A DNA stretch of 64,000 nucleotides from NCBI RefSeq assembly GCF_016862635.1, contig NZ_BONI01000005.1, forward strand, positions 1 through 64,000, given 5' to 3'. The position numbers and the translations under genes were made by a program. Positions within the stretch are counted from its first letter, which is position 1; the number at the start of each line of letters is the position of its first letter. The notes beneath the pieces were generated by a model. That model saw nothing but the letters and a program-made list of their open reading frames with translations, did not search any database and was not told the origin of the DNA. Shown one piece after another: positions 3,484 to 54,163 of the stretch. This DNA is from Catellatospora coxensis (GTDB taxonomy: Bacteria; Actinomycetota; Actinomycetes; Mycobacteriales; Micromonosporaceae).

Positions 3484-3957
3484 GTGAACCGTACGCACGA
3501 GCAACGCCTGACCGCCCTCGAGAGCGAGGCGTTCCGCAACAACACCACGCGGTCCCCGGAGTCGACGGACGAGGTGGCGCTGCTCCGCGGCGCAGTCAAC
3601 GAACTCTCCGCCGACCTGCGTGAACACCGCCAGGACACCAAGGAGCAGTTCGCCGCGGTGAACAGCCGTTTGGACGGCATCGACCAGCGGCTAGACCGCG
3701 TGGACCAGCGGTTCGACGGCCTCGACCAGCGGCTAGACGCCGTGGACCAGCGGTTCGACGGCCTCGACCAGCGGCTAGACCGCGTGGACCAGCGGTTCGA
3801 CGGCCTCGACCAGCGGCTAGACCGCATGGATCAACGGTTCGACGGCATGGATCAGCGGTTCGACGGCATCGACGGGGTGCTGCGCGAAATCCTGACCATC
3901 GTCCGGCCCGCAGCGGACGCGACGGTTCCGGCACAGGTTGCCGGAGTGGCCGGCTGA
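3484..3957 (+). CDS. Coiled-coil heptad-repeat protein of unknown function
   Basis: A 157-residue cytoplasmic protein with no signal peptide or membrane segment. Residues 63-132 are ten near-perfect heptads alternating LDRVDQR-type and FDGLDQR-type units, hydrophobic at positions a and d, so a long parallel coiled coil is expected. Residues 1-62 also look helical and charged, and the C-terminus is short and hydrophobic. Similar DQR-heptad proteins are common in actinomycetes and phages, but no molecular role is established. The GTG start is chosen for its Shine-Dalgarno (GGAGG about 10 nt upstream). The gene stands alone between two unrelated transcription units. Confidence 0.75.
   Translation: MNRTHEQRLTALESEAFRNNTTRSPESTDEVALLRGAVNELSADLREHRQDTKEQFAAVNSRLDGIDQRLDRVDQRFDGLDQRLDAVDQRFDGLDQRLDRVDQRFDGLDQRLDRMDQRFDGMDQRFDGIDGVLREILTIVRPAADATVPAQVAGVAG
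3670..3879 (+). repeat. In-gene tandem repeat, 42-bp unit (two heptads)
   Basis: The coding DNA repeats with a 42-bp period, each unit encoding one L-type and one F-type heptad. The units are nearly identical at the DNA level, down to the rare CTA leucine codon in CGGCTAGAC. Such identity indicates recent unit duplication, so copy number may vary between strains. Confidence 0.75.
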
Positions 3958-6309: not shown

Positions 6310-6355
6310 GGAAGGGCACCTTCTTATACGCGGAGCGATAAGAAGGTGCCCTTCC
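6310..6355. repeat. AAGGGCACCTTC-type hairpin in a divergent promoter region
   Basis: An 18-bp perfect inverted repeat (6310-6327 with 6338-6355) around a 10-nt loop. The core is the same as in the terminator at 15146-15187. Unlike that one, it lies between two divergent gene starts, not after a stop codon. It could end an unannotated transcript, insulate the two promoters, or be a dispersed element. Confidence 0.7.
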
Positions 6356-52877: not shown

Positions 52878-53409
52878 GGTGTACGTCGTGCGGTTGGTGG
52901 TCATGGCGGACACGCATGTGCCGAAGCGGGCACGGGACCTGCCCGAGCCGCTGTGGGACGCGGTGGACGGCGCCGATGTCGTGGTGCACGCGGGCGACTG
53001 GGTCGACGTGCCGCTGCTCGACGCGCTGGAACAGCGGGCCAAGCGCCTGATCGCGGTGTACGGCAACAACGACGGCCCCGCCCTGCGTGCCCGGCTGCCG
53101 GAGACGGCCCGCGCCGAACTGGACGGCCTGCGCGTCGCGGTCGTGCACGAGACCGGCCCGGTGACCGGTCGCGAGCGGCGCTGCGCCGCCCTGTTCCCCG
53201 ACTGCGACGTGCTGTTCTTCGGCCACTCGCACATCCCGTGGGACAGCACCGCGCCCACCGGCCTGCGGCTGCTCAACCCGGGCTCGCCGACCGACCGCCG
53301 CCGCCAGCCGTACGCGACATTCCTCACCGCCGAGATCGCCGCCGGCCGGCTCGTCGACGCAGAACTGCATCGACTCGGCGGCGCAGGCGGCCAACCCGGG
53401 CGGCGCTGA
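52875..53409 (+). CDS. YfcE/MJ0936-type metallophosphoesterase (CDS 52888-53409, with its -10 box)
   Basis: The coding part is 173 residues from the GTG at 52888. The motif ladder is complete: ADTH (D8, H10), HAGDW, YGNND, and GHSH near residues 112-115, all ligands of the two-metal calcineurin-like site. These small enzymes hydrolyse phosphodiesters; their cellular substrates vary. TAGGGT (52875-52880, overlapping the upstream stop) ends 7 nt before the GTG; a GTG at 52879 would add three residues. Confidence 0.87.
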
Positions 53410-53490
53410 GCCACCCGCACGGCGTACCCAGGCGATTCTGTGCGTCCGGTGGTGCCGACCTGGTCGGCACGACATTCCCTGCCGAGCGAC

Positions 53491-53630
53491 TTTGCTCTGC
53501 ACCCATTTGCTTGCTCTGCACCCGAATACGCAACAGCGCGCGCACCTGTTGCGCCGATGGGTGCAGAGCAAGGCCATGGGTGCAGAGCAAGGTTTTGGGT
53601 GCAGAGCAAGGTTTTGGGTGCAGAGCAAAG
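53491..53630. repeat. 19-nt-period inverted repeat array
   Basis: Six copies of one 13-mer occur with strict 19-nt spacing: two as TTGCTCTGCACCC (53492, 53511) and four as its complement GGGTGCAGAGCAA (53559, 53578, 53597, 53616). The two groups face each other around a perfect inner stem, CGCAACAG/CTGTTGCG (53529-53536 with 53546-53553). Full repeat units after the centre read GGGTGCAGAGCAAGGTTTT. The array can fold into alternative long hairpins. It lies between convergent genes, so termination is possible, but the periodicity needs another explanation. Confidence 0.85.
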
Positions 53631-53682
53631 TCAATCGGTGGACATGCCTGACCTGCGCCGCCGGGCGACGATCAAGTCCCGG

Positions 53683-54093
53683 TCAGCCGGCCGTGTTGGA
53701 CCAGGACCGAGTGCTCAGGACCAGCCGGTAGCCGTCGGGATCCGCCACGGTGACGCCCCAGCGGTTCCAGTAGGGGCCCTGCGACACCCGGGTGCCCCCA
53801 GCCTCGGTCAGGCGACTCATCAGCGAGTCGTCGACGGGTCCGGCGAGATAAAGCACGAGCAGGTCCTCGGCGGTGGGCGAGGGCGGGGCCGCGAGGTCAT
53901 GGCCGGCGACGAGTTCCAGGTGCCAGGCCGCGTCGGGCCAGCCGAGCATCAGTATGTCGTGCTCGCCGGGTCCGTCGCCGGTCGCCCGGTAGAGGACGCG
54001 CAGGCCGAGGCCGTCGACATAGAAACGTTCTGCGGCGGCGAGGTCGCGGCAGGGGCGAGCCAGGCGCAGGTGGGCCCGGGGGTCGATGATCAT
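53683..54093 (-). CDS. VOC-family (glyoxalase-like) protein
   Basis: A 136-residue single VOC domain pair: DPRAHLRLARPCRDLAAAERFY at the start and GVTVADPDGYRLVLS at the end. The family covers glyoxalases, dioxygenases and antibiotic-binding proteins. The ATG at 54093 has GGAG about 6 nt upstream and begins the domain; an extension to 54153 is not supported. It is monocistronic. Confidence 0.84.
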   Translation of the reverse strand: MIIDPRAHLRLARPCRDLAAAERFYVDGLGLRVLYRATGDGPGEHDILMLGWPDAAWHLELVAGHDLAAPPSPTAEDLLVLYLAGPVDDSLMSRLTEAGGTRVSQGPYWNRWGVTVADPDGYRLVLSTRSWSNTAG

Positions 54094-54163
54094 CGCGGCT
54101 CCAGCGGGGTCGGTTTGCGCCGACCCTGCCTGCTCAAGTGCGCTTGAGGTCAAGAACGGCGGC

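Follow-up and report, generated by a model that had tools for sequence, protein, structure and literature searches.

An inverted 19-nt array behind two Catellatospora coxensis genes as a probable copy of a REP-like extragenic palindrome family of the Micromonosporaceae

What kind of element sets six copies of one 13-mer, TTGCTCTGCACCC, in opposing orientations and at a strict 19-nt period between two bacterial genes? The array lies in a 64,000-nt stretch of Catellatospora coxensis (NZ_BONI01000005.1, positions 1 to 64,000; hereafter the window), for which the first-pass annotation had proposed unit duplication and possibly a protein-binding lattice, a structured RNA or a mobile palindrome. We consider it likely, at a probability of roughly 70%, that the array represents a single member of a REP-like group of extragenic palindromes in the Micromonosporaceae, a transcribed 3′-end hairpin that is tolerated behind stop codons and is gained and lost like REP-type repeats. 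The architecture described earlier was located exactly in the window (Table 1), with two 13-mers on the forward strand opposite four on the reverse, same-arm neighbours exactly 19 nt apart and a perfect 8-bp stem (CGCAACAG/CTGTTGCG) within the 35 nt separating the two arms. The spacer is indeed convergent, enclosed by a phosphoesterase gene on the forward strand and a YycE-like, glyoxalase-superfamily gene on the reverse. At two or fewer mismatches, no further copy of TTGCTCTGCACCC occurs elsewhere in the 64-kb window. Because 2 of 100 shuffles also reached six matches at this tolerance, the significance of the array lies in the exactness and order of its sites rather than in a loose count. 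Elsewhere in the window, positions 3673-3873 hold a 21/42-bp tandem repeat with a score of 309 at period 42.

Table 1. Features of the array and its flanking genes (positions in the window).
Feature	Position	Strand	Remark
Left-arm copies of TTGCTCTGCACCC	53492-53504, 53511-53523	+	exact
Right-arm copies of TTGCTCTGCACCC	53559-53571, 53578-53590, 53597-53609, 53616-53628	-	exact
Left arm	53492-53523	+	TTGCTCTGCACCC, ATTTGC, TTGCTCTGCACCC
Left linker	53505-53510	+	ATTTGC; outward on the - strand GCAAAT, "A type"
Inner stem, left half	53529-53536	+	CGCAACAG; family-conserved part GCAAC
Terminal loop of inner stem	53537-53545		9 nt, locus-specific sequence
Inner stem, right half	53546-53553	+	CTGTTGCG; family-conserved part GTTGC
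Right arm	53559-53628	-	four 13-mers; linkers GGCCAT, GGTTTT, GGTTTT
Outer closing bases, left	53488-53491		GACT; can pair with AGTC at 53629-53632
Outer closing bases, right	53629-53632		AGTC
Calcineurin-like phosphoesterase gene (PF12850)	52879-53409	+	array begins about 83 nt past its stop
YycE-like / glyoxalase superfamily gene (PF22658, PF22659)	53683-54153	-	stop about 55 nt from array

The C. coxensis assembly that carries the window (G000; 9.35 Mb, 222 contigs) contains 43 exact 13-mers, all of them within 12 clusters in which same-arm neighbours are always 19 nt apart, against no match for a reversed control pattern. Five of 11 Catellatospora genomes contain the two-unit pattern in its exact form, and a scan of an 84,980-species collection returned 33 stretches, all from Catellatospora, the named relatives that carry it being Catellatospora sichuanensis, C. 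tritici and C. paridis. When up to three mismatches were allowed, it was found in 6 of 300 Micromonosporaceae genomes, again all Catellatospora, against a single control match in one of the 300. As far as searched, the two-unit form is found only in Catellatospora, and the result named earlier as support, many intergenic arrays with the identical 19-nt period, was obtained. All pair-bearing clusters were fetched as loci (12 from G000, the window included, 3 from G002, 1 from G004, 12 from G005 and 19 from G009). In the first four of these genomes the 13-mers, among those listed, are exact except for two in one locus (L074), with one change each, a conservation that is partly ascertained since the loci were found via exact 13-mers; the flanks of orthologous pairs among the same four genomes are 83-96% identical. 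Contiguous 19-nt runs in G009 extend up to nine units. In addition to the 19-nt period, two loci of that genome (L089, L104) have a higher order of tandem repetition, in blocks of 55 and 57 bp that each contain two 13-mers and the inner region.

The Catellatospora two-unit array elaborates a simpler palindrome, TTGCTCTGC...GCAGAGCAA, whose ends enclose an inner GCAAC/GTTGC-type stem. Of 61 family genomes, 20 matched a looser half-site, GTTGCG-N5-GGGTGCAGAGCAA with 2 mismatches allowed, but only a few had high counts; the control gave one or two matches in several of the 61. Loci read in five genomes (18, 13, 7, 13 and 7 stretches from G060, G001, G051, G027 and G031, among the matches listed) share a layout in which each arm has a single core, GCT-TTGCTCTGC-NNNN-...-GCAAC or GCACC-loop-GTTGC or GGTGC-...-NNNN-GCAGAGCAA-AGC, and are mostly 49-78 bp long, with one of 99 bp. 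Of 200 Micromonosporaceae genomes, 63, spread over 15 of 44 genera, match the pattern TTGCTCTGC-N28-58-GCAGAGCAA. Two or more matches occur in 48 genomes and 10 genera, the other 15 of the 63 positive genomes have a single match, and the maximum is 45 per genome; the control matched once each in 7 of the 200. In a class-wide draw of 394 genomes the palindrome appeared in three, namely two of three family members and one of 391 others (G373), with the control found in one genome. As far as these 200 family genomes and the 394-genome draw reach, the family is found in the Micromonosporaceae. The repeats of the G373 genome, from another family of the class, look different: they contain TTGCTCTGCTGCACATGGGGTGCAGA, in which related words are arranged otherwise. 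At G094:C1:1607107-1607328, three consecutive palindromes start 79 bp apart, like a BIME-type cluster. A second palindrome family, GGAAGGGCACCTTCTT-loop-AGAAGGTGCCCTTCC, has a copy at positions 6310-6355 of the window and is present in 10 of 11 Catellatospora genomes, with up to 47 forward matches in one; a further copy lies in a G010 spacer orthologous to one (L066) where G000 has a 13-mer element.

The alternative of a structured nucleic acid held up when the two arms were compared. Because the cores are fixed by the search pattern, the pairing count was limited to the next 15 positions inside the core. Across 120 palindromes from 12 genomes (matches in the fetched stretches together with those from G013 and from places in the 200-genome scan, among the matches listed), 1601 of 1800 positions pair with G-T counted, against a mean of 1249 and a maximum of 1299 in 1000 shuffles of right arms over all palindromes, and against a mean of 1526 and a maximum of 1559 when arms were shuffled within genomes; this permutation test, like the others here, treats as independent elements that share ancestry. 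Genome by genome, pairing exceeded the shuffled mean in 9 of 12, equalled it in G059 and fell below it in G031 and G051 (P(<=) 0.014 for the latter), and covariation was significant in four (G094, G114, G079 and G001). Four-base blocks beside the core change together, as ACCC/GGGT, TGCC/GGCA, TTCC/GGAA, TTAC/GTAA, ATCC/GGAT and GCAC/GTGC. On the outer side of the core, the five adjoining bases also covary in the G000-G005 group (73 of 85 pair, P 0.0005), with no clear covariation of the same bases in five other groups. Folded as RNA, the window element reaches -104.8 kcal/mol on the + strand (z -8.6) and -96.5 on the - strand (z -7.7), values that 0 of 200 shuffles attained on either strand; folded as DNA it reaches -52 (z -9.0). 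A search of Rfam 15 gave eight matches up to E 1, none reaching the gathering score, of which seven were microRNA precursors, themselves long hairpins, and one was uup.

Orthologous spots show the element in different states. At the window spot it is present in G000, G004 and G005 and absent from G002 and G010, where the gene pair is still adjacent; at the L063 spot it is present in G000 and G005 and absent from G002 and G010; and at the L066 spot it is present in G000 and absent from G002, G003 and G010. Unit number differs as well, which upholds the proposal of unit duplication. The window spot has 2+4 units in G000 and 2+2 in G004 and G005, L067 has two where its orthologue L083 has three, L064 has four where L086 has two, and the 2+2 element L077 corresponds to L103, whose arms have ten sites and two. 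Arms that have expanded mostly repeat one and the same linker. Exactly one arm exceeds two units in 13 of 16 two-arm G009 elements (P 0.013, a count that admits stray two-mismatch sites) and in 4 of 18 from G000-G005 (P 0.83), so that expansion of one arm only is suggestive. Half-elements on their own are common. The L063-orthologous spacer of G010 (L255) contains a different long hairpin, GTGATCGGCGCTTG...CAAGCGCCGATCAC; because G000 and G005 have the element there, different hairpins fill the same 3′ spacer across species.

The genomic position of the family marks it as a feature of gene 3′ ends. Of 105 elements, 49 lie between convergent, 46 between codirectional and 5 between divergent genes, and the remainder either overlap a predicted gene (3) or lack a neighbour on one side (2), as classed by a codon-usage gene caller whose errors include orthologues placed in different classes (L063 and L079) and a missed helix-turn-helix gene (L204). 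All spacers longer than 60 bp in the same stretches, those of the elements included, divide into 75 convergent, 180 codirectional and 109 divergent. An earlier positional-GC caller, which had given 46 convergent and 8 divergent of the 105, was replaced because it missed the right-hand gene of the window. In total 102 of the 105 elements lie outside predicted genes, the element starts at a median of 63 nt beyond the stop codon (145 gene 3′ ends), and in 30 of the 46 codirectional copies the distance to the stop upstream is shorter than that to the start downstream. At five loci, L062, L078 and L094 in Catellatospora and L204 and L234 in another genus, the element lies beside one shared flank. 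The L062 element is upstream of a helix-turn-helix gene, and TTATCCACAG, which we take to be DnaA-box-like, lies near the element in L062 and L204.

These positions raise the possibility of a dedicated bidirectional intrinsic terminator, a hairpin without a U-tail that is selected at gene ends rather than spreading as a repeat. The elements lie just past stop codons and are enriched in convergent spacers, a GC-rich hairpin follows the stop, and the fold is very stable on both strands. In 32 of 131 stop-to-element gaps there are fewer than 30 nt, leaving no room for another hairpin, and inspection of the L063 spot by eye showed a plain GC hairpin alone in G002, this hairpin together with the element in G005, and in G000 the element with no recognisable copy of the hairpin. 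However, a T-tract is absent (a mean of 1.1 T in the 10 nt following the element, with no match to a terminator pattern), codirectional spacers account for 46 of the 105 copies, and the near-invariant sequence core goes beyond structure in a way that is unexpected for a plain terminator. A separate hairpin of -20 kcal/mol or better lies between stop and element in 60 of 99 cases, about as often as in length-matched controls (51 of 99), and because such hairpins occur there the element is usually not the sole terminator candidate. We regard a dedicated terminator as possible but unlikely.

Turnover at orthologous spots would also be expected of a MITE whose inverted ends are recognised by a transposase acting in trans, with the 13-mers as its binding sites. 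Transposon ends can carry repeated binding sites, and the opposition of A-type to T-type linkers in 14 of 17 two-arm elements resembles distinct left and right ends. Against this, no clean target-site duplication was evident by eye at three empty/filled loci, no larger element with these ends is apparent among the coordinates of the 12 clusters in the fragmented C. coxensis assembly, and lone halves are common. The window stretch had no match among plasmids or phages, and the two-unit pattern none among IMG/VR viral contigs. Such an origin appears distinctly improbable. The idea of a mobile palindrome is supported in part: presence and absence at orthologous spots show an interspersed palindrome that turns over, while movement itself is only inferred, because neither a transposase nor a target-site duplication nor a sharp boundary was found.

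An unexpected feature of the Catellatospora form lies in its linkers. In 14 of 17 two-arm elements from G000, G002, G004 and G005, linker positions 4-5 read AA on one arm and TT on the other, and because fully paired arms would show identical outward-read linkers, the arms do not pair throughout. At linker positions 2-5 of this first group, reshuffling of the arms predicts 27.3 pairs among 68 positions, but only 7 are able to form; when each orthologous set is represented by a single element (11 of the 17), the linker centres pair at 5 of 44 positions against 17.5 expected (P 0.0007). The G009 elements, which have different and GC-richer linkers, pair at 8 of 52 against 17.1 expected (P 0.004), a test of 13 of the 16 two-arm elements that excluded one with arms too far apart and two with a linkerless arm. 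In the G000-G005 group, linker positions 1 and 6 hardly vary and are thus uninformative on pairing. The window fold shows 13-bp helices interrupted by 4 x 4 internal loops and, the 4-nt linker centres being unpaired, the stem therefore consists of 13-bp helices joined via such loops. Positions 15-18, which belong to the inner N4 region and not to linkers, show no significant pairing deficit in any of nine genomes whose palindromes have a single core in each arm, and in one such genome (G001) this region shows an excess; a weaker deficit is seen in the inner N4 region of the Catellatospora two-unit elements (20 of 68 against 29.5, P 0.012). Since the nine one-core genomes lack a deficit, we restrict the claim of an enforced mismatch to the linkers of Catellatospora. 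Descent from one unlike-armed element could explain part of the G000-G005 mismatch pattern, and less easily that of G009.

It is known that attC sites and REP hairpins are single-stranded hairpins recognised in one orientation by an enzyme. By analogy, the array might be a modular segmented palindrome in which selection keeps the 4-nt linker centres non-complementary, where the A-type and T-type mismatches would make the two folded strands distinguishable, and the single-stranded hairpin could then be recognised in one orientation by a recombination or transposition enzyme, without a Y1 transposase. We hold this bolder reading to be improbable. The likelier explanation for the loops is that long perfect palindromes are not tolerated. 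In E. coli, SbcCD does not target an 85-bp interrupted palindrome during replication, while its expression together with a 246-bp palindrome is lethal in a recA mutant (PMC3315005); we infer the intolerance from these two observations.

A protein-binding lattice was one possibility named by the first-pass annotation. In this reading a DNA-binding protein would occupy sites at a 19-bp period and, at the ends of genes, serve as a roadblock or organise the chromosome. It would account for the exact period, for 13-mers that are near-perfect while linkers vary, and for the existence of single half-arrays. However, single half-arrays between codirectional genes have no consistent orientation toward the preceding stop (L065, L070 and L088 against L064 and L092, orthologues counted once), and covariation of the arms points to pairing. 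In 34 two-arm elements the contiguous 19-nt run of the shorter arm never exceeds two units, and the other genera read have one core per arm, so that a lattice is not the common feature of the family; we regard this suggestion as very improbable. Tandem Repeats Finder reports the right arm as an ordinary 3.8-copy array, yet a chance local tandem duplication with no family behind it is refuted by the genome-wide copies (12 clusters, 5 of 11 Catellatospora genomes, 63 of 200 family genomes) and has a negligible likelihood.

Returning to the REP-like palindrome, we propose the following course of events. In one set of Catellatospora genomes an arm as a rule comprises two head-to-tail 19-nt units, each a 13-nt core with a 6-nt linker, and mostly one arm has gained further units, presumably by tandem duplication. 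A transcript from either flanking gene is predicted to fold into a hairpin of 13-bp helices split by 4-nt internal loops, and such a 3′-end hairpin behind the stop could protect the 3′ terminus of the mRNA and act as a second safeguard of termination. As with other REP-type repeats, individual spots would acquire and lose the element, possibly through a mobilising enzyme. The most likely reason for the persistence of the internal loops is that a palindrome longer than about 100 bp, if paired throughout, would be cleaved or deleted when the chromosome replicates. The family thereby offers a natural series, the same palindrome being short and perfect in some genomes and long and regularly interrupted in others, which makes testable how much perfect palindrome chromosomes tolerate and how repeats evolve around that limit. 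It also serves as a caution for the spacers of actinomycetes, where a repeat that looks like an array of binding sites may instead form the stem of a hairpin. The palindromic repeat described here belongs to a whole bacterial family, and no published description of it was found among the best-ranked matches in the open-licence literature; a term search of the main text of RepRanger (PMC12306157) found no mention of Micromonospora.

Among known systems, MITEs resemble the Micromonosporaceae palindrome in being small and non-coding, with inverted arms and presence/absence between related genomes, but differ in that neither a target-site duplication (three loci, by eye) nor a parent element (coordinates of the 12 C. 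coxensis clusters) was found for it. Like intrinsic (Rho-independent) terminators, the element is a strong hairpin on both strands shortly past stop codons; unlike them, it has no T-tract, its near-invariant core is common to many unrelated loci, and other hairpins often precede it. Uptake sequences (DUS/USS) likewise place a short core in inverted pairs behind genes, where it doubles as a terminator, and they reach thousands of copies (PMC1852404, cited in PMC2267715, is a reference for such sequences). In contrast, the Micromonosporaceae element has tens of copies and a long spaced stem.

Comparison with REPs requires a narrower name. A candidate mobiliser, RAYT/Y1, was ruled out by the distribution of PF01797 across 14 genomes. 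The domain is present in six (G000, G002, G003, G005, G006 and G060) and absent from the copy-rich G001, G009, G013, G027, G031 and G051, and G003 has three PF01797 genes and none of the TTGCTCTGC-N28-58-GCAGAGCAA palindromes. By eye, the 60-nt outer profiles of six groups contain no GTAG or CGTC tag, and the consensus at the element boundary is T or CT preceding TTGCTCTGC. REPs usually exceed 100 copies per genome, compared with 12 clusters here and at most 45 matches per genome for one exact pattern. As the tag, the Y1 transposase and the copy number all fail, we call the family REP-like and not a tagged, RAYT-linked REP. It is also longer, mostly 49-78 bp and more in Catellatospora against 20-40 bp for REPs, with a Catellatospora stem composed of 19-nt tandem units. 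REPs are described as small extragenic palindromes that lie mostly between convergent and unidirectional genes (PMC3733652, PMC2817692). As set out there for REPs, REPINs and BIMEs, the Micromonosporaceae repeats are interspersed, extragenic and palindromic, often forming opposed pairs, and like REPs they lie behind genes and are rare in divergent spacers (49/46/5 of 105).
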